Assembly (NCBI GenBank): GCA_026126105.1
Contig: JAHCJV010000018.1
Coordinates: 1 to 64,000, forward strand
Origin: Enhydrobacter sp.
Lineage (GTDB): Bacteria; Pseudomonadota; Alphaproteobacteria; Reyranellales; Reyranellaceae
Length of the DNA stretch: 64,000 nucleotides
Reading direction: 5' to 3'
This document shows positions 23,663 to 33,273 of this stretch, in pieces. Below the pieces are notes generated by a model, which had not been told where the DNA came from, did no database searches, and worked only from the letters and a program-made list of their open reading frames with translations. The position numbers and the translations under genes were made by a program. Positions within the stretch are counted from its first letter, which is position 1; every line of letters starts with the position of its first letter.

Positions 23663-24526
23663 CTAATCCAGAGTGCCGTAGCGCGGATCGTCAGCCGGCT
23701 GAGGATAGACTTGCCGATAAGCCTGGCTGCCGCCCCGCTGATAGGGAGTCGGGGTACGGGTGCTGCTCACCGGCGGGGCATACTGCGACTGGCGGTAATC
23801 CTGCGGTGGCGGGTCGTAGGTCGTGCGGTAGTCCTGTGGCGCTGGGTCGTAGGTGCCGGGCGGCTGGCGATAGTCCTGCGGCGCCGGGGCGGCCTGATAA
23901 TCGGGCTGGCGCGAAAGGTCCCGTACGACCTTGGGGACGCCGCCCCGGTCCTGGATGATCTGCACGCGATCGCCAAGCTGGACGTCTCCGTCGTCCCGCT
24001 GAGCAACCGTGACGGTGTCGCCGCTATCTTTCTGGACCGTGACTTCGATACCGCGCCCGCCACTGCCCATGCTGGTGTGATTTTGGAGGATGTTGCCGGC
24101 AATCGCGCCACCCACTGCGCCCAGTACGCCACCGATCAGCCCGCCGCCGACCCCGCGGCCGCTGGAGGCGCCGATGGCGATACCGCCCAGCCCGCCCAGC
24201 AGGCCGCCGATCATCGTCCCGTTACCCGAACCACCGCCGCCACCGCCGCCGCGGAGGCTGACATCGTTGATGGACACCACCCGACCGGTGTCGCCGGGCT
24301 GGGCACTGGAATAGCTCTGGGCGCCGCCATTCGCCTGGTTTCCGTAGGATTGGCCGCCATAAGACTGGCTGCCATAGGGTTGTGCAGCGGCGTAAGGCGG
24401 CGCGCTCGCCACGCTGCTTCCCGACGTGCTTACGATGCCCGGCTGCACGGCGTTGTTGGCGCACGCACCGAGGCCCGCCACCAGCGCAATCGGCAGCAGG
24501 AGCGTCCGTAATGTCTTGCCCCTCAT
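23663..24526 (-). CDS. Glycine-zipper lipoprotein with proline-rich tail
   Basis: This 287-residue paralogue of the neighbouring lipoprotein has a lipobox (LVAGLGAC, Cys22), a low-complexity Ser/Gly/Tyr stretch (PYGSQSYGGQSYGNQ), the zipper (GGLLGGLGGIAIGAS and [15 protein letters not shown]), the conserved [25 protein letters not shown] domain, and a C-terminal tail with three PAPQDYR/PPPQDYR-like repeats. The tail and Tyr-rich linker are absent from the shorter paralogue and may span the periplasm or bind peptidoglycan. GGGAGG precedes the ATG. It lies downstream of iscX but is probably a separate unit. Confidence 0.87.
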   Translation of the reverse strand: MRGKTLRTLLLPIALVAGLGACANNAVQPGIVSTSGSSVASAPPYAAAQPYGSQSYGGQSYGNQANGGAQSYSSAQPGDTGRVVSINDVSLRGGGGGGGSGNGTMIGGLLGGLGGIAIGASSGRGVGGGLIGGVLGAVGGAIAGNILQNHTSMGSGGRGIEVTVQKDSGDTVTVAQRDDGDVQLGDRVQIIQDRGGVPKVVRDLSRQPDYQAAPAPQDYRQPPGTYDPAPQDYRTTYDPPPQDYRQSQYAPPVSSTRTPTPYQRGGSQAYRQVYPQPADDPRYGTLD

Positions 24527-24537
24527 CTGAACCTCCC

Positions 24538-24569
24538 GGTCACACTCCTTTACGAGTGGAAATCTGACC
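24538..24569 (-). other. Stem-loop between iscX and the lipoprotein genes
   Basis: On the minus strand GGTCA, six unpaired bases, then CACTC/GAGTG around a six-base loop and TGACC form a bulged hairpin that ends just before the GGGAGG ribosome binding site of the lipoprotein gene. No run of T follows, so a classic terminator is unlikely. It could affect processing or ribosome access. Confidence 0.3.
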
Positions 24570-24581
24570 GAATTGGGGCGT

Positions 24582-24788
24582 CTACCCTCTTTCTTCGATC
24601 CAGGCGGCCTGAATCGCTTCGAGGATCTTCTCGTTGGAACGCCCCGGATCGTCTTCGAAACCCGGTATCGCCATTACCCAGCGGTGCAGATCGGTGAAGC
24701 GCAGGTTGATGTTGTCCGCTTCAGGATGAGCTTCCTCGAGCTCGATGGCAATGTCGTGCACGTCCGTCCAGCGCAGCTTGCGGGCCAT
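24582..24788 (-). CDS. iscX: Fe-S cluster assembly protein IscX
   Basis: This 68-residue acidic protein matches IscX/YfhJ across its full length: LRWTDVHDIAIELEEAHPE near the start and the characteristic FTDLHRWVMAIPGFEDDP followed by SNEKILEAIQAAWIEE. IscX binds IscS and iron and tunes the rate of cluster assembly. It is the last gene of the isc operon, nine bases after fdx. Confidence 0.95.
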   Translation of the reverse strand: MARKLRWTDVHDIAIELEEAHPEADNINLRFTDLHRWVMAIPGFEDDPGRSNEKILEAIQAAWIEERG

Positions 24789-24797
24789 CGAGGTCTC

Positions 24798-25133
24798 CTA
24801 CCTGTCGACCATCATGTTGCGGGTGGCGGCCGGCAGCTTCACCACCAGTCCATCCAGCTCATTGGTCATGCGGATCTGGCAACCGAGCCGGGAGGTGTGG
24901 GTCAGGCCGAAGGCGAGGTCGAGCATGTCCTCCTCGTCCTCGCTCGCCGGAGCAAGCTTCTCGAACCATGCATTCTCGACGACGACATGGCAGGTCGAGC
25001 AGGCGAGCGATCCTTCGCAGGCACCCTCGATGTCGACGTGATTGCGGTGGGCGATCTCGAGCACTGAAAGGCCAAGCGGCGCATCGACTTCCTTGCGCGA
25101 GCCGTCCCTCAGGATGAACGTCATCTTCGGCAT
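24798..25133 (-). CDS. fdx: ISC-type [2Fe-2S] ferredoxin
   Basis: This 111-residue adrenodoxin-like ferredoxin supplies electrons to cluster assembly on IscU. The four cluster ligands are Cys39, Cys45 and Cys48 in [16 protein letters not shown] and Cys85 in SRLGCQIRM. The acidic patch between them ([11 protein letters not shown]) is the usual partner-binding surface. It follows hscA by 13 bases and precedes iscX. Confidence 0.95.
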
Positions 25134-25146
25134 TCAAGCAACCTCG

Positions 25147-27042
25147 TTAGTCGCCGACCCGGCTTGCCAGGTCGGTCACCGCCATGCCGGCCAGCGCCTC
25201 GCGGATGCCGCGATCCATGCGCCGCTCGGCGAAAGGCTTCGAAAGGGCCTCGAGCGCCTCGGCAGCGGCGTTGATCTCTTCGCGATCTTCACCGGCAATC
25301 GACTTCTCCAGCCGCGCTCGTGCCGCGTCGAGGAGCTCGCGTTCCTCGACCGACAGAAGCGCGCCGTCCCTGGCGAGCGCCGCCTCGAGCGCAAGCAAAT
25401 TCCTTCGTGCCTCGACCCGCGCCTCGGCGAGCAGGCGCCGCGCCATGTCCTGCTCGGCATTGTCGAGGCTGTCATAGAGCATGTCGGCCATGTCGTCGTG
25501 GCTGAGGCCGTAGGACGGCTTCACCTCGATGCGCTGCGACACGCCCGTCGTGCGCTCCTCGGCGGACACCGTGAGCAGGCCGTCGGCATCGACCGCAAAA
25601 GTGACCCGGATGCGCGCGGCGCCGGCCGTCATCGGCGGGATGCCCGACAGCTCGAAGCGCGCCAGGCTGCGGCAATCCTCGACCATCTCGCGCTCGCCCT
25701 GCACGACATGGATCGCCATGGCACTCTGGCCGTCCTGGTAGGTGGTGAATTCCTGCGCGAGCTGAACGGGGATCGGCGTGTTGCGCGGCACGATCTTCTC
25801 GACCAGCCCACCCATCGTCTCGAGCCCGAGCGACAGCGGCGTCACGTCGAGCAGCAGCGTGTCCGATCCGCCGGTGAGCGCCTCGGCCTGCAAGGCCGCG
25901 CCGAGCGCGACGACTTCGTCAGGATCGATGTCGACGAGCGGCGGCTTGCCCAGCATCCCGGCGACAGCGCTGCGCGCGAGCGGCACGCGGGTCGAGCCGC
26001 CGACCAGCACCACGCCCTGGATCTCGTCCGCGGTCATGCCGGCATCGGCCAGCACGTTGCGGGCGATGGCGAGAGTGCGCTCGATGTAGGTCGCGATCAT
26101 CGCGTCGAACTCGGCACGCGTAAGAGAATGAAAGGACGGCACGCCGTCCAGCTCGAGCCGGCCCGATGTCTGGTCGCGGTCGGACAGCTGCTCCTTCATG
26201 TGCCGCGCCAGCGCGAGCGCGTTCTTGACCGCTGCCTCGTCCACAGTGTCGGCGAGGCCATCCGTCTTGCGCTCCTCCAGCATCCGCTCGGCGATTGCGC
26301 GGTCGAAATCGTCGCCGCCGAGCGCCGTGTCGCCTCCGGTCGCGAGGACCTGGAAGACTCCCTTCTCGAGCCGCAACAAAGAGAAATCGAACGTGCCGCC
26401 CCCAAGGTCGTAGACCGCGTAGAGCCCCTCGGAGCCCTTGTCGAGGCCGTAAGCCAGCGCCGCCGCGGTCGGCTCATTGACCAGGCGGAGCACCTGCAGG
26501 CCGGCGACTCTTGCGGCATCGCGGGTCGCAGTGCGGGCGGCATCGTCGAAATACGCCGGCACGGTGATGACGGCGCGATCGACCGGCTTTTCCAACGCCG
26601 CCTCGGCGCGGGCCCGCAGTGCTTTCAGGATTTCAGCCGATATTTCGACCGGCGAGCGCGCCTTGCCGCCAATGCGCAGCTTGACCATGTCGGTTTCGCC
26701 GGTGCCCGGCTCGATTTCATAAGGCATCACGCCGGCGACCGCGTGGAGGTCGGCCGCGCCCCGGCCCATGAGGCGCTTCACCGAAGCAACGACGTTCCTG
26801 GGCTCCTTCGCCGTCAGCAGGCGCGCTTCTTCGCCGACAAGCACACCGCCCGCAGCAGGATAGGCGACGACCGACGGCACCAAGGCCTTGCCGGTCTCGT
26901 CGTGCAGCGCGGCAGGCTTACCTTCGCGCGCGATTGCGACGACGGAGTTGGTCGTGCCGAGATCGATGCCGATCGCCAGCGTCCCCTCGTCCGCATGCGG
27001 CAGCGGCGTTTCGCCCGGCTCGTGGATTTCCAGCAGGCTCAT
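25147..27042 (-). CDS. hscA: Fe-S protein assembly Hsp70 chaperone HscA
   Basis: This 631-residue specialised Hsp70 uses ATP to release clusters from IscU. The nucleotide-binding domain shows [14 protein letters not shown] near residue 24, [33 protein letters not shown] and [12 protein letters not shown]; the substrate-binding domain begins [13 protein letters not shown]. HscA rather than DnaK is indicated by the N-terminal extension, absence of a DnaK-style EEVD-like tail and location directly after hscB, which it overlaps by ATGA. Its client motif LPPVK is present in the IscU of the same operon. Confidence 0.95.
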
Positions 27043-27548
27043 GCCTTGCGTTCCAGGTTGGTGCGGCGCGCCCGCGCTTCCTCGGCGAACTTTTCGAGAT
27101 AGCGCAGGCGAAGGAGCGCCTTTCTGATGGCCGGCTTGTCGCTTGCCAAGAACAAACTGGGCAACCGGGCCAGCGAGGATCTCATCTCGTCGCGTGACTT
27201 CGCGGCCAGCCCCTCGATCGCCTGGATCGTGCTCGCCTCATGCAGTTCCTCGCGAGCTTCCATGGCTTCCATCAGCAGTTCCGGATCGTCGATCGTCTTG
27301 CCGTCAGCCGGCATGTCGACCCCCTTCAAACCTGCAAGATAAACCGCGCGCGCCAGCGGATCCTTTAGCGTGCGATAGGCATCGTTGAGGGCCGCTGCCT
27401 CCGCCGAGGCCTTAGCGCGTTCTTCGGGAGGCTTGGCGACGAAACGGTCGGGATGCCAGAGCCGCTGCTGGGCGAAGTAGGCCTTGTCGAGCGCGCCGGC
27501 GTCCAGATCGAGCGCCGCCGGCAGCCCCAGCCGCGCAAAATGGTCCAT
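27039..27548 (-). CDS. hscB: Fe-S assembly co-chaperone HscB
   Basis: This 169-residue J-domain protein brings IscU to HscA and stimulates ATP hydrolysis. The J-domain HPD is at residues 32-34 (RLWHPDRF), followed by the family's [18 protein letters not shown]. The C-terminal three-helix bundle that contacts IscU covers roughly residues 85-165. It lies 12 bases after iscA. Confidence 0.94.
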
Positions 27549-27560
27549 GACGCGCCAGCT

Positions 27561-27956
27561 TCAGACGTGAAAGGATTCGCCGCAGCCGCAGCGGCCCTTC
27601 TCGTTCGGATTCCTGAAGACGAAACCCGACTTCAGCTTCTCCTCCTCGTAGTCCATCTCCGTGCCGATCAGGAACAGCGAGGCCTTCGGGTCGATCAGCA
27701 GCTTGATGCCGGCGGTGTCGACGATCTCGTCCATCGGCTCCTGCTTGTCGGCGAACTCGAGCGTGTAGCTCAAGCCCGAGCAGCCCTTGGTGCGCACGCC
27801 GATCCGGATACCGGCAGTCGGCTTGCCGCGCCCGTCGATCAGCGCCTTGGCGCGCTCGGCAGCGGCCGGCGTGACCGACATCAGCTGCGGGCGCGGCCTG
27901 CGCGGCCGCAGCTGAGCGACCGGCTTCGGGGCATCGGTGGTTACGGGCGTGCTCAT
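27561..27956 (-). CDS. iscA: A-type Fe-S carrier IscA
   Basis: This 131-residue protein carries iron or an Fe-S cluster to target proteins. The three ligands are Cys59 in TKGCSGLSYTLEF and Cys123 and Cys125 in GRCGCGESF. The first 25 residues form a Pro/Arg-rich extension not found in E. coli IscA; MSVTPAAAERA at residue 26 is an in-frame ATG that would give the standard 106-residue length, so the true start may be 27881. Gene order (iscU upstream, hscB downstream) supports IscA. Confidence 0.92.
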   Translation of the reverse strand: MSTPVTTDAPKPVAQLRPRRPRPQLMSVTPAAAERAKALIDGRGKPTAGIRIGVRTKGCSGLSYTLEFADKQEPMDEIVDTAGIKLLIDPKASLFLIGTEMDYEEEKLKSGFVFRNPNEKGRCGCGESFHV

Positions 27957-27963
27957 TACGCTG

Positions 27964-28374
27964 TTACTCCGCGGCGTCCTTGGTCTCGTCCTTCTTGGCG
28001 GTCTTGGCGCGGTAGTCGGCGATTGCCGCCTTGATCGCGTCCTCGGCCAGGACCGAGCAGTGAATCTTCACCGGCGGCAAAGCCAGGTGCTTGGCGATGT
28101 CGGTGTTCTTGATCGTCTCGGCCTCGTCGATGGTCTTGCCCTTCACCCACTCGGTGACGAGCGAGCTGGACGCGATCGCCGAGCCGCAGCCGAAGGTCTT
28201 GAACTTGGCATCCTCGATCAGCCCCTCAGGGCTCACCTTGATCTGCAGCTTCATGACGTCCCCGCAAGCCGGCGCACCCACAAGGCCCGTCCCGACATCC
28301 TCGGAATTCTTGTCGAGCGACCCGATGTTGCGCGGGTTCTCGTAGTGATCGATCAGCTTTTCGCTATAGGCCAT
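27964..28374 (-). CDS. iscU: Fe-S scaffold protein IscU
   Basis: This 136-residue scaffold assembles [2Fe-2S] clusters from sulfur delivered by IscS. Ligands are Cys37 with Asp39 (APACGDVM), Cys63 (FGCGSAIASSS) and Cys106 (KIHCSVLAED). The HscA recognition motif LPPVK is at residues 99-103. A Lys/Glu-rich tail follows. It lies 25 bases after iscS. Confidence 0.96.
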   Translation of the reverse strand: MAYSEKLIDHYENPRNIGSLDKNSEDVGTGLVGAPACGDVMKLQIKVSPEGLIEDAKFKTFGCGSAIASSSLVTEWVKGKTIDEAETIKNTDIAKHLALPPVKIHCSVLAEDAIKAAIADYRAKTAKKDETKDAAE

Positions 28375-28399
28375 GACGCTCTCCTCGAATTCCTGGTTG

Positions 28400-29638
28400 C
28401 TAGTGGGCGGCCCACTCGATGGACTTGATGTCGATGCCTTCCTGGGACATCTCCCAGAGCGGGCTCATCTCGCGCAGCTTGGTCACCTGATGCACCAGAT
28501 CGGCGACCGCGGTATCGACTTCCTGCTCGGTCGTGAAGCGGCCGAGCCCGATACGCAGCGAGGTGTGCGCCATCTCCTCCTCGACGCCCAGCGCGCGCAG
28601 CACGTAGCTGGGCTCGAGCGAGGCCGAGGTGCAGGCCGAACCCGACGACACCGACAGGCCCTTGATGCCCATCATCAGCGACTCGCCCTCGACATGGGCG
28701 AAGCTGATGTTGAGATTGCCCGGAATGCGCTGCTCGAGGTCACCGTTGACGTAGATCTCCGGCAGCCTGGCGTGCAGGCCCTTCAGCATGCGCTCCTGCA
28801 GCTTCTTGAGCCGCTTGGCCTCGCCGTCCATCTCCTTCATGCAGATCTCGGCGGCCTCGCCCAGCCCGACGCAGAGCGGCGTCGGCAGGGTGCCCGAGCG
28901 GAAGCCGCGCTCCTGGCCACCGCCGACGATCAGCGGGACGAGACGGACACGCGGCTTGCGGCGAACGTAGAGAGCGCCGATGCCCTTGGGGCCGTAGATC
29001 TTGTGGCCCGAGATGCTCAGCAGGTCGATGTTCATCGCCTCGACATCGAGCGGAATCTTGCCGGCAGCCTGCGCCGCGTCGGTGTGGAAGAAGACCTTCT
29101 TCTCGCGGCAGATCTTGCCGATCTCGGCCAGCGGCTGGATTACGCCGATCTCGTTGTTCACAGCCATGATCGATACGACCACCGTCTTGTCGGTGATGGC
29201 GTCGCGCAGCACCTGAAGGTCGATCAGGCCGTTCTTCTGCACCGGCAGGTAGGTGACCTCGAAGCCGTTCTGCTCGAGATGGCGGCAGGTATCGAGCACG
29301 CATTTGTGCTCCGTCACGGTGGTGACAATGTGGTTCTTGCGGTCCTTGTAGAACTCGGCGACGCCACGGATGGCGAGATTGTTCGACTCGGTCGCGCCCG
29401 ACGTGAAGATGACTTCCTTCTCGTCCGCACCGATCAGCCTTGCGAGTTGGCCACGCGCCTTCTCGACACCCTCTTCCGCCTCCCAGCCATAGGAATGGCT
29501 GCGCGAATGCGGATTGCCGAACTTGTACGTAAAGTAGGGCATCATCGCTTCGAGGACGCGCGGGTCCATTGGCGTGGTGGCCTGGTAATCCAGGTAGATC
29601 GGCTGATCGTTGCGCCGGATCTGGGAAAACGCGTTCAT
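28400..29638 (-). CDS. iscS: Cysteine desulfurase IscS
   Basis: This 412-residue PLP enzyme converts cysteine to alanine and a persulfide for Fe-S clusters, tRNA thiolation and other pathways. The PLP lysine is Lys213 ([12 protein letters not shown]) and the persulfide cysteine is Cys336 in the long flexible loop [17 protein letters not shown] that defines group I enzymes. The C-terminus contains the IscU-binding tail. It is preceded by its own IscR-like box and candidate promoter within the end of the upstream desulfurase gene. Confidence 0.96.
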
Positions 29639-29656
29639 GCTAACCCCTTGAAATTC

Positions 29657-30772
29657 CTAGGCCGCGTGGGCTTGGGATAAATCCGAGTGCGTTACTCGGA
29701 TATATAGGCCCTTCCACGCGGCGATCAAGCAATCAATGTCCTCTGAAACCGTGTTCCAGCCCGAACTTATCCGGATCGCAGTCGCCGCTTCGGCAGGGTC
29801 CACGCCCATCGCCGTCAACACCGACGATCGCGTAACCTTGCCGGACGAACAGGCGGCGCCGGCGCTGACGCAGACTCCTGCCAGATCCAACGCCATGACC
29901 TGGGTTTCGGCCTTCACGCCCGGCATGGAAATGCAGGTCGTATTGGGCAGCCGCGGTACACCGGCGCCATAGACCGTTGCCGTGGGCGCGATGGCGCGCA
30001 GCCCGATCTCGATCCGGTCGCGTAGCGAAGCCACGTCAAGCCCGTCCCGTGAAGCCTCTGCCGCGGCGCCAAAGCCGACGATCCCGGCGACATTCTCGGT
30101 GCCGGCCCGACGATTCGATTCCTGGCTTCCACCCTTGCGGTCGGAAGCAAACGGGGCGTCGGCGCGCACCGCCAGGGCGCCGACGCCGGTCGGGCCGCCG
30201 AGCTTGTGGGCGGACAAGCTGAGATAGTCGACGCCCAGTCGATGCAGATCGAGAGGCACCTTGCCCGCGGCCTGAACGGCATCGCAGTGAACCAGAGCAC
30301 CCGCGACCCGGGCGAGGCGCACGATCTCGGCGATGGGCTGGAGGACGCCCGTCTCATTGTTCGCGAACATCACCGAAACCAGCGCAGGCTCGGAACCGGC
30401 CAGCATCCGCTCGAGCGCCGCGAGATCGACGACGCCGTTACGATCGACGGGAATGATCTCGGCCCGCGGCACCGCCTTAAGCACGCTCTCATGCTCGACG
30501 GCCGACACGAGTATCCGTTCGCGGTGCGTGCACGCCACGGCGATGTTGTTGGCCTCCGTGCCGCCGGAGGTGAAAATCACTTCGGATGGCAGCGCTCCCG
30601 CAAGCGCGGCCACCTGCCGGCGCGCGGCATCGACACGCCCCCGCGCGGCCCGGCCGGCGCGATGAACCGACGACGGATTGCCCCCTGCGCCCAGAGCCTC
30701 AAGCATGGCGTCGAGCACCGCCGGCCGCACCGGGCTGGTGGCATTATGATCGAGATACGCGAACGCGGGCAT
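29657..30772 (-). CDS. Second cysteine desulfurase (NifS/IscS-like)
   Basis: This 371-residue aminotransferase class V enzyme is encoded between iscR and iscS. Lys190 (LSAHKLGGPTG) should bind PLP, and Cys308 (SAGAACSSGKV) is the candidate persulfide residue. The loop around it is shorter than in the IscS of the same operon. The protein is clearly diverged from IscS, so it is not a recent duplication. A paralogous desulfurase next to iscS is known from other alphaproteobacteria, for example Rickettsia. It may have a separate acceptor, or support the same scaffold under stress. The last 15 codons overlap an IscR-like box. Confidence 0.92.
   Translation of the reverse strand: MPAFAYLDHNATSPVRPAVLDAMLEALGAGGNPSSVHRAGRAARGRVDAARRQVAALAGALPSEVIFTSGGTEANNIAVACTHRERILVSAVEHESVLKAVPRAEIIPVDRNGVVDLAALERMLAGSEPALVSVMFANNETGVLQPIAEIVRLARVAGALVHCDAVQAAGKVPLDLHRLGVDYLSLSAHKLGGPTGVGALAVRADAPFASDRKGGSQESNRRAGTENVAGIVGFGAAAEASRDGLDVASLRDRIEIGLRAIAPTATVYGAGVPRLPNTTCISMPGVKAETQVMALDLAGVCVSAGAACSSGKVTRSSVLTAMGVDPAEAATAIRISSGWNTVSEDIDCLIAAWKGLYIRVTHSDLSQAHAA
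29679..29728 (-). promoter_or_regulatory. Internal IscR type-1-like box and promoter before iscS
   Basis: At 29679-29703 the minus strand reads ATATCCGAGT, five bases, then ACTCGGATTT. The central part is a perfect inverted repeat with 8-base arms and a 5-base spacer (29681-29701), the same 10-5-10 layout as the E. coli IscR type 1 site (ATASYYGACT and AGTCRRSTAT). TTGATC (29723-29728) lies 16-18 bases upstream of TATATATC, so a promoter overlaps the box. It is inside the 3' end of the upstream desulfurase gene and 41 bases before the iscS ATG. Confidence 0.55.
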
Positions 30773-30784
30773 CGGCTGGCCTGA

Positions 30785-31258
30785 TCAGCTGGCAGCGGCC
30801 ATCGTGTCGGAATTCGCGGGCGTCGGTGCCTCGACGATGCGCGGGGCCAGCTTTCGCTCCAGCACGTCATGCAGGCTGACGGAACTGAGGAAGACGTGGA
30901 TCTGATTGCCCAGCTCTTCCCACAGGTCGTGCGTCAGGCACTTGCTCCGATCCGCGCGACAGCCGGACTGCCCCATCTCGGTGCAGCGCGTCGCCTTGAT
31001 CGGTTCGTCGACAGCCAGAATGATTTCCGAAACACGGGTTTCGGCCGAGCCGCGCGCGAGGCGATAGCCACCGCCCGGACCGCGCACGCTCTTCACCAGT
31101 TCGGCACGGCGCAGGCGCGCAAAAAGCTGCTCCAGATAGGATAAAGAAATCTCCTGACGGGCGGCGATGTCCGACAGGGATACGGGCTTGGCCTGGGCAT
31201 GACGGGCCAGGTCGACCATCGCCATGACCGCATAACGGCCCTTGGTGCTGAGCTTCAC
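30785..31258 (-). CDS. iscR: Fe-S cluster-sensing regulator IscR (Rrf2 family)
   Basis: This 157-residue winged-helix regulator starts MKLSTKGRYAVMAMVDLA and contains the wing motif GPGGGYRLAR. The cluster ligands are Cys92, Cys100 and Cys107 with His110 (KCLTH); spacing is seven and six residues between cysteines, slightly longer than the five and five of E. coli IscR. With [2Fe-2S] bound it should repress the isc operon from the type-1-like site upstream. It is the first gene of the operon, 12 bases before the second desulfurase. RirA and NsrR relatives were considered, but operon context favours IscR. Confidence 0.94.
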   Translation of the reverse strand: MKLSTKGRYAVMAMVDLARHAQAKPVSLSDIAARQEISLSYLEQLFARLRRAELVKSVRGPGGGYRLARGSAETRVSEIILAVDEPIKATRCTEMGQSGCRADRSKCLTHDLWEELGNQIHVFLSSVSLHDVLERKLAPRIVEAPTPANSDTMAAAS

Positions 31259-31355
31259 AGCATCCTCCTCCGCCTAAAGTTCTTGAAAACAAAGGCGTTG
31301 CTACGATATTCCAGCCCCCCGGACAGGGTTCTGGGAAAACCAACTCGTCTGCTCA

Positions 31356-31388
31356 GATTTAATAAACCCGAGTAGGCGGGTCAAGTAT
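31356..31388 (-). promoter_or_regulatory. iscR promoter with IscR type-1-like operator
   Basis: The minus strand at 31364-31388 reads ATACTTGACC, five bases, ACTCGGGTTT, matching 17 of 20 half-site positions of the E. coli IscR type 1 consensus with the same spacing. It contains the candidate -35 TTGACC (31379-31384), with TAAATC (31356-31361) 17 bases downstream as -10. The box over the -35 region suggests autorepression by cluster-loaded IscR. A weaker inverted repeat (31352-31372) overlaps the -10. Confidence 0.65.
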
Positions 31389-31471
31389 CAAGATTCCTGC
31401 CCGATTTGCAGCTGTCGGCCCCAACCCGGCGGTCCGAGGCGGCCAAAAACGACAAAGAAACCGGAGACTCT

Positions 31472-32146
31472 ATGCCTGACGTGATGTTCATCGGCCCAGA
31501 GGGGCGCCTCGAAGGCCGCTATCACCAGAGCAAAGAAGAACACGCGCCGATCGCGCTCATCCTCCATCCTCACCCGCAATATGGCGGGACGATGAACCAC
31601 AAGGTCGTCTTCTCGCTATTCCACGTGTTCGTCAGCCGCGGTTTCTCGGTACTCCGCTTCAACACGCGCGGCGTGGGTCGCAGCCAGGGCCGGTTCGACA
31701 ACGGCATGGGCGAACTGTCCGATGCCGCTGCGGCACTCGACTGGCTGCAGGCGATGAACGCCGACGCCAAGTCGTGCTGGATCGCCGGTTATTCGTTCGG
31801 CGCCTGGATCGGCATGCAGCTTCTGATGCGCCGTCCCGAAATCGACTGCTTCATCTCGGTGGCGCCGCCGGCGAACTCCTACGATTTCAATTTCCTCGCC
31901 CCCTGCCCCTCCTCCGGCCTGATCGTCGGCGCGGAGAGGGACGAGGTCGTGCCGCTCGCCGACATCCAGAAGCTGGTCGCCCGGCTGTCGCTGCAGAAGG
32001 GCATCACGGTCGAGTCGCGCACCATCAAGGGCGCCAATCACTTCTTCCACGACTCGCTCGACACGCTCGCGGTCGAAGTCGACAAATATGTACAGAAGTG
32101 CCTGATCACGCCGCCCGGCCGCGCCACGAGCAACAAGGAACCGTAA
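31472..32146 (+). CDS. Alpha/beta hydrolase (COG2945-type)
   Basis: This 224-residue hydrolase has the oxyanion segment LHPHPQYGGTMNHKVV near residues 32-47, the nucleophile elbow GYSFGA (Ser near 110), a catalytic aspartate in GAERDEVVPL and histidine in KGANHFFHD. COG2945 members are small cytosolic esterases of unknown substrate. ATG 31472 with GGAGA upstream is taken as the start; the extra upstream frame lies in the iscR control region. It is transcribed away from iscR, a neighbourhood often seen in alphaproteobacteria. Confidence 0.88.
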   Translation: MPDVMFIGPEGRLEGRYHQSKEEHAPIALILHPHPQYGGTMNHKVVFSLFHVFVSRGFSVLRFNTRGVGRSQGRFDNGMGELSDAAAALDWLQAMNADAKSCWIAGYSFGAWIGMQLLMRRPEIDCFISVAPPANSYDFNFLAPCPSSGLIVGAERDEVVPLADIQKLVARLSLQKGITVESRTIKGANHFFHDSLDTLAVEVDKYVQKCLITPPGRATSNKEP

Positions 32147-32187
32147 CTCCGGCGTCCCTCGTCGAATCGGGACGGCGCGGTGTGGTG

Positions 32188-33273
32188 TCAGGACGGTAGA
32201 TGGAGCCGCCCGCCGGTCGCCGGCTGCGATACGCCCGTCGTCGTCGGATAGGTGAGAGGCAGGCCGCGTAGCGAGCGCACGGCAAGAAAGCCAAAGGCTT
32301 GCGCCTCGAGCGCGTCGCCATCCCAGCCGAGCGCGGGGGCCAGGATCACCGGGTTGCGCGTCTCCTCCGCGATGGCGGCGACCAATGTCGGATTGCGCGC
32401 ACCACCGCCGGTGATGATCCATTGCCTTGCCGGTGCCGGAAAGTGGCAGGCCGCCAGGGCGAGCGCGCGAGCGGTGGCACGCGTCAGCGTTGCCGCACCG
32501 TCAGCCACAGAAAGGCCTTCCACCCAACCCTCGTTGAAATCCCCCCGGTCGAGCGACTTGGGCGGCATGCGCGCAAAATACCGATGCTCGGTCCAACGCT
32601 CCAGCCGTGCCCGATCGACCTTGCCGCTTGCCGCGAGCCCGCCGTCGCGATCGAAGCGCTGGCCCGCGCGCCGCGCGCACCAGTCGTCGAGCGGCCCGTT
32701 ACCCGGTCCAGTATCGAACGCAAGGAGCTGGTCGCCTTCGCCTATCCAGGTAACGTTCGCCACGCCACCGATATTCGCCACGGCGACGGGCCGGGCGAGG
32801 TCGTGCGCGAGGGCTGCATGAAACACCGGCACCAAGGGGGCCCCCTGCCCGCCCGCCGCAACATCGGCGCTGCGCAGGTCGTTCACGACGCGTATGCCGA
32901 GCGATCTCGCAAGCAGGGAGCCATCCCCCAGCTGCCAGGTAAAGCGCCGCTCGGGCCGATGCGTGATCGTCTGACCGTGAAAGCCGACGATGTCGATCGA
33001 GGAGATCGGGACTCCGTTTGCCGAAGACCACTCCGCGACGGCGTCGACGTGCGCCTCCGTCACGGCACGCTCTGCGGCGGCAGTGACCATGTTGGGCCGA
33101 TCGGCGCCAAAGGCAGCCCGGATCACACGGCGGACCTTCTCGGGATAGGTGACCGTCAAGGTGGGCCCGAACGAGGCGATCCGCTCGCCGTCGGTCTCCA
33201 GCAAGGCGACATCGACGCCATCGACCGACGTGCCGCTCATCAGACCGAGGGTCCGAAGGAAAGATGATGACAT
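32188..33273 (-). CDS. anmK: Anhydro-N-acetylmuramic acid kinase
   Basis: This 361-residue kinase recycles peptidoglycan by converting 1,6-anhydro-MurNAc and ATP to MurNAc 6-phosphate. It starts with the family hallmark [21 protein letters not shown], contains the sugar/phosphate segment [13 protein letters not shown] and the ATP site [10 protein letters not shown] near residues 294-303. Length is normal. It is divergent from tyrS with a gap of only 54 bases. Confidence 0.95.

Follow-up and report, generated by a model that had tools for sequence, protein, structure and literature searches.

The isc operon of this alphaproteobacterium, which belongs to the Reyranella group as judged by its closest loci, raises the question of whether its assembly genes depend on the iscR promoter alone, or whether they also possess a control region of their own within the coding sequence that precedes iscS. 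The window analysed is a stretch of 64,000 nt, in which the operon lies on the minus strand in the order iscR, NifS-like desulfurase, iscS, iscU, iscA, hscB, hscA, and fdx. The original prediction placed an IscR-type box and a promoter inside the end of the second desulfurase gene. The site does lie inside a gene end; however, the gene is NifS-like and is the first desulfurase after iscR, while the true IscS, by TIGR02006, is encoded by the next gene. Nothing resembling a terminator was found between iscR and iscS on this strand, and an Rfam search of 24500-32500 gave no match. The operon and the parts of the internal element are as follows.

30785..31258, minus: iscR, encoding a regulator of the Rrf2 family whose cluster site has three Cys and one His
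29657..30772, minus: gene for the NifS-like cysteine desulfurase, with the predicted promoter and the proposed operator in its last codons
28400..29638, minus: iscS (TIGR02006, 702 bits), first gene served by the predicted internal promoter
24798..28374, minus: iscU, iscA, hscB, hscA, and fdx, downstream in the same operon (fdx ends at 24798)
29723..29728, minus: -35 element TTGATC, encoding Leu349-Ile350
29699..29706, minus: -10 element TATATATC (TATATA at 29706-29701, extending to 29699), 16 nt after the -35 element
29679..29703, minus: proposed IscR operator ATATCCGAGT-AACGC-ACTCGGATTT, a 25-bp box overlapping the -10 element
29639..29698, minus: predicted 5' leader of the internal transcript, with its start placed from the -10 element and including the conserved TTTCAAGGGGTTAGC

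The internal element and its proposed role

The promoter sequence and the box sit inside the desulfurase reading frame (30772-29657), and the box ends 40 nt before the iscS ATG (29638). As had been described, the inverted repeat is perfect in its 8-5-8 form (arms 29681-29688 and 29694-29701) and has type-1 geometry; the 12-nt arms 29677-29688 and 29694-29705 are 92% complementary. The overlap with a TTGATC promoter is also borne out, since TTGATC-N16-TATATA (29728-29701) runs into the box at 29703-29679. The geometry of a type-1 site is present, with a 25-bp dyad, A/T ends, and the YYGAST-N5-ASTCRR core. A first-order Markov sequence of 64 kb would contain about 2.8 repeats of the 8-5-8 kind by chance, and the repeat taken by itself carries no statistical weight; the significance of the element comes from its conservation and from the genome scans, not from repeat statistics. 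A sigma-70 consensus scan of the window did not flag the internal promoter because its -10 element is without the final T that the scan requires. The only other repeat of at least 8-5-8 with this spacing in the window is a perfect 9-5-9 inverted repeat at 742-764.

The element is very probably an internal promoter, repressed by cluster-loaded IscR, that drives iscS-iscU-iscA-hscB-hscA-fdx. According to this proposal, a sigma-70-type promoter (TTGATY-N16-TATATA) would lie in the 3' end of the desulfurase gene, with its -10 element and start site under a near-perfect type-1 operator. In the presence of ample Fe-S clusters, [2Fe-2S]-IscR would occupy the dyad and RNA polymerase would be blocked; when clusters are scarce, IscR would lose its cluster and leave, and the promoter would open. 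Its transcripts would begin some 55-60 nt before iscS and would supplement read-through from the iscR promoter. The level of iscS-iscU-iscA-hscB-hscA-fdx would thereby rise over that of iscR and the first desulfurase, both of which would depend on the iscR promoter. The sequence firmly shows the element, its position, its conservation, the synonymous constraint, and a motif in common with iscR and rpoH; the binding of IscR, a preference for the holo-form, repression, the start site, and read-through are inferred.

Conservation and codon constraint

In a whole-genome search of the order, 64 of the 65 genus members carried the full -35/16/-10/box pattern with zero mismatches, and one related genus had it with a single mismatch. 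The sole genome of the genus without the element (G037) is 77% complete and its desulfurase gene is missing; a weak box elsewhere in that genome was rejected as the element, as nothing there matched the operon genes. The same search showed the element to be absent from genera g2, g3, g5, and g6. The desulfurase gene and iscS are nevertheless adjacent in the g2, g3, and g5 genomes, therefore the element is not essential to this type of operon. Among more distant bacteria with the same desulfurase, the box pattern was absent from all of the loci L040-L080, and visual reading of 24 junctions revealed no such element.

Across 39 aligned loci, the -35 element reads either TTGATC or TTGATT and the -10 element follows it after 16 nt in every case, being TATATA in 37 and TATATG in two. 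The geometry of the box is fixed, with CCGAG and TCGG invariant in all 39 loci and the five central bases variable, which gives the genus consensus ATATCCGAGT-N5-A[C/G]TCGGATAT. The desulfurase gene itself has a mean pairwise third-position identity of 55% (38 aligned genes). The aligned loci are related and their counts are not independent events, the control being the ranking of codons within the same gene: among 371 codon columns, the strongest bias is found at Leu356, whose codon combines the -10 element with the base preceding it (CTA or TTA in 38/38 against a background of 1.3%), followed by Arg359 in the half-site (CGA in 38/38 against 5%), Leu349 in the -35 element (TTG in 38/38 against 14%), and Val360 (GTA in 21 of 38). 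The -35 and -10 elements, which keep a fixed spacing and overlap the box, are conserved beyond coding need.

Directly 5' of the iscS ATG, TTTCAAGGGGTTAGC (29639-29653, minus) is near invariant in the Reyranella group. It is equally so in the one other genus with the internal promoter, and differs in genera without the promoter. Its conservation exceeds the apparent need of a ribosome-binding site, and it is possible that it is an sRNA target.

The fixed promoter elements bear on whether the box has a promoter of its own at all. It might be an IscR operator that mainly obstructs passing polymerase (a roadblock), or an auxiliary one that forms a loop with the iscR promoter, 1.7 kb distant; both sites are within one operon, and the dyad is far nearer perfect than the iscR promoter boxes (matrix scores are given below), so its occupancy could be high. 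However, a -35 hexamer and a 16-nt spacing held fixed through rare synonymous codons are needless for a roadblock or a loop, and this role is considered unlikely.

It is very unlikely that the dyad acts in RNA, where a hairpin in the read-through mRNA would be an attenuator, a processing site, or a stabiliser of the iscR-desulfurase segment. The dyad could form a hairpin of 10 bp with a 5-nt loop, and segments of the isc mRNA are known to differ in stability in E. coli, with a similar suggestion for Caulobacter. However, one inner pair is broken, with G facing G, in 11 of the 39 loci (9 of 32 rows in a separate count), because the right half may read either ACTCGG or AGTCGG. AGTC is the half-site form of E. 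coli, therefore both variants fit a protein that reads DNA. The covariation of the hairpin equals that of shuffled controls (343 of 500 shuffles are at least as high) and several species break the stem with no compensating change; the stem changes follow the one-sided choice of ACTC or AGTC in IscR half-sites. A hairpin would also leave the fixed upstream TTG and CTATAT codons unexplained.

IscR as the candidate repressor

Related boxes lie at other promoters of this genome and of related genomes, as follows.

31364..31388, minus: iscR promoter box A, ATACTTGACC-CGCCT-ACTCGGGTTT, containing the -35 element TTGACC
31336..31360, minus: iscR promoter box B, AAATCTGAGC-AGACG-AGTTGGTTTT, weak in the window, 28 bp downstream of box A
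L119:2030-2098 (G000:C151), L115:1976-2040, L116, L117, L118, L122, and L127: boxes at rpoH

The claim that the internal box has its right half in common with the site upstream of iscR holds, as ACTCGGATTT at the internal site corresponds to ACTCGGGTTT in box A. Relatives, L006 and L003 among them, have a stronger box B. A matrix built from the internal boxes rose above threshold only at the internal site and the iscR promoter in the 64-kb window, with a score of 38 for the internal box and 7 for the iscR promoter boxes, a comparison that favours the internal box as the matrix was trained on that class of site. Matches to the E. coli type-1 consensus ATASYYGACTRWWWYAGTCRRSTAT are equal, at 18/25, for the internal box and the iscR promoter box; the internal box ranges from 16 to 22 across loci, and 18/25 is also reached at one unrelated position of the window. 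With a relaxed type-1 pattern, the 6.3-Mb genome gave the iscR promoter, the internal site, a site upstream of rpoH, and one atypical contig, the best match being box A of the iscR promoter. The match in the atypical contig (G000:C63, 6.8 kb) was rejected, since it lies beside an unrelated long low-G+C reading frame and looks foreign or contaminant. The long low-G+C protein of this contig (L120:2-2299) is unlike the rest of the genome, possibly owing to contamination.

The promoter of rpoH (sigma-32) carries one or two IscR-type boxes in Reyranella and g3, about 40 bp apart where they are paired, and the regulatory region of rpoH is also bound by IscR in Caulobacter (PMC11475020). Next to the rpoH boxes of Reyranella lies a CIRCE-like repeat, TTAGCAGTC-N9-GAGTGCTAA, which suggests that rpoH may be under the joint control of HrcA and IscR.

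The iscR leader (31259-31345, minus) is strongly conserved (GGAATATCGTAGCAACGCCTTTGTTTTCAAGAACTTTAGGCG). A short stem of the leader shows a paired change from C-G to U-A in 6 of 27 loci, and no Rfam match was found; the region is possibly a structured leader or a further protein site.

The IscR of the window has C92, C100, C107, and H110, with a spacing slightly longer than in E. coli. It aligns ungapped with 4hf0 over the DNA-binding domain and keeps S40, Y41, E43, Q44, and R59, which have been named as critical for DNA binding by E. coli IscR at a type-2 site (PMC11475020). Its score of 193 bits is below the curated cut-off of TIGR02010 (207.6), as is the case for most non-enterobacterial IscR members in the control genomes. 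The iscR promoter of genus g3 contains the E. coli-like ATATCCGACT-N5-AGTCGGCTTT in the same CTATATCCGA setting. In P. aeruginosa, the proven IscR sites match the E. coli consensus at 68% and 76%; site B of iscR (ATAGTTGACCTAATTACTCGGATAA), which has the same ACTCGGAT half-site as Reyranella, is the main footprinted site there, and binding is lost when its ends are changed (PMC6599224). IscR would be the binder because of the matrix scan, the genome scan including rpoH, the form of the iscR site in g3, and this half-site of P. aeruginosa.

The palindrome could instead be bound by a different regulator, either another Rrf2 protein, for which the genome offers five other Rrf2-like matches (one with an internal stop), or one of the Fur, Irr, or RirA type. 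This is highly improbable, since the same box occurs at the iscR promoter and at rpoH, the site at iscR in a related genus is E. coli-like, and the half-site belongs to a proven IscR site of P. aeruginosa, with the recognition residues of IscR conserved. Taken as a whole, the prediction of a type-1-like operator over a promoter for iscS onward is supported by all computational tests run, through the genus-invariant element, the fixed rare codons, the same box at iscR and rpoH, and the IscR recognition residues.

The proposed codon-embedded control in relation to known systems

That selection on the protein alone explains the nucleotides, through the C-terminal peptide LYIRVxxSDI conserved in the genus, can be given almost no weight, as the codon choice itself is fixed to rare codons and the synonymous-site result contradicts it. 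The half-sites encode conserved residues (0.79-1.00), whereas variable residues come from the spacer (0.55 and 0.34) and from just after the box, and in genera without the box the tail of the desulfurase differs (e.g. YRRLSPASRPA). Because the rare codons are fixed, the spacer residues vary, and the tail differs where the box is missing, it appears that the DNA element dictates the end of the protein, and not the reverse.

A further interpretation is rather less likely than not. The strongest IscR operator of the genome might be the internal box, and not that of iscR, and it might dictate the C-terminal residues of the desulfurase; the usual hierarchy would then be reversed, with the assembly machine under tighter cluster-sensing control than the sensor, iscR and the desulfurase being kept steady and iscS-fdx having a separate switch. 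The tighter control of the assembly genes is a guess that would hold if the quality of the dyad tracks affinity.

IscR-controlled internal promoters are already known. The element resembles P3 of the R. sphaeroides isc-suf operon, an internal promoter within the first desulfurase gene, next to iscR, with assembly genes downstream; P3 is bound and repressed by IscR, being 2.5- to 2.8-fold higher without IscR, and its response to iron was not significant in wild-type cells (PMC6956336). However, P3 serves suf genes, its box GACTATTTCTGTCGG is imperfect, and Irr also binds (PMC6956336), whereas in Reyranella a near-perfect dyad at the 3' end of the gene would serve iscS-iscU-iscA-hscB-hscA-fdx. 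The regulators differ as well: the IscR of R. sphaeroides is of the single-cysteine Rhodobacter type, while that of Reyranella has three Cys and one His.

In P. aeruginosa, sites A and B of iscR are tandem type-1 boxes with the ACTCGGAT half-site, as in Reyranella, and site B is close to the Reyranella iscR box A, including its TTGACC left half; these sites control iscR itself, and the accessible part of the study describes no internal operator before iscS (PMC6599224). As given in the same source, E. coli type-1 sites are 25-bp dyads with A/T ends and YYGA..TCRR cores, like the Reyranella box, and have a higher affinity for holo-IscR (PMC6599224). The inner base of the half-site is swapped in Reyranella (GAGT/ACTC, versus GACT/AGTC in E. 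coli), and the centre is G+C-rich, not A/T-rich. In Caulobacter crescentus, IscR occupies the isc-suf promoter, the rpoH regulatory region, and a further place within the operon, at the end of sufB; the motifs are given in other terms there, and no role is assigned to the internal peak (PMC11475020). A literature search on IscR and an internal isc-operon promoter found nothing. As far as the literature was searched, a near-perfect, codon-embedded operator serving the ISC set across a genus is new, as is an internal dyad that is better than the iscR promoter boxes.

E. coli splits iscR from iscSUA through mRNA decay directed by the sRNA RyhB (PMC6956336). In Reyranella, by contrast, the uncoupling of iscR from the assembly genes appears to be achieved by DNA, through a second operator and promoter placed in codons. 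The locus would be a clean case of a DNA operator that shapes both codon choice and protein sequence. Considered alongside P3 of Rhodobacter, which divides the operon near the same position, it suggests that the assembly genes were set apart from iscR and its first desulfurase more than once among alphaproteobacteria.
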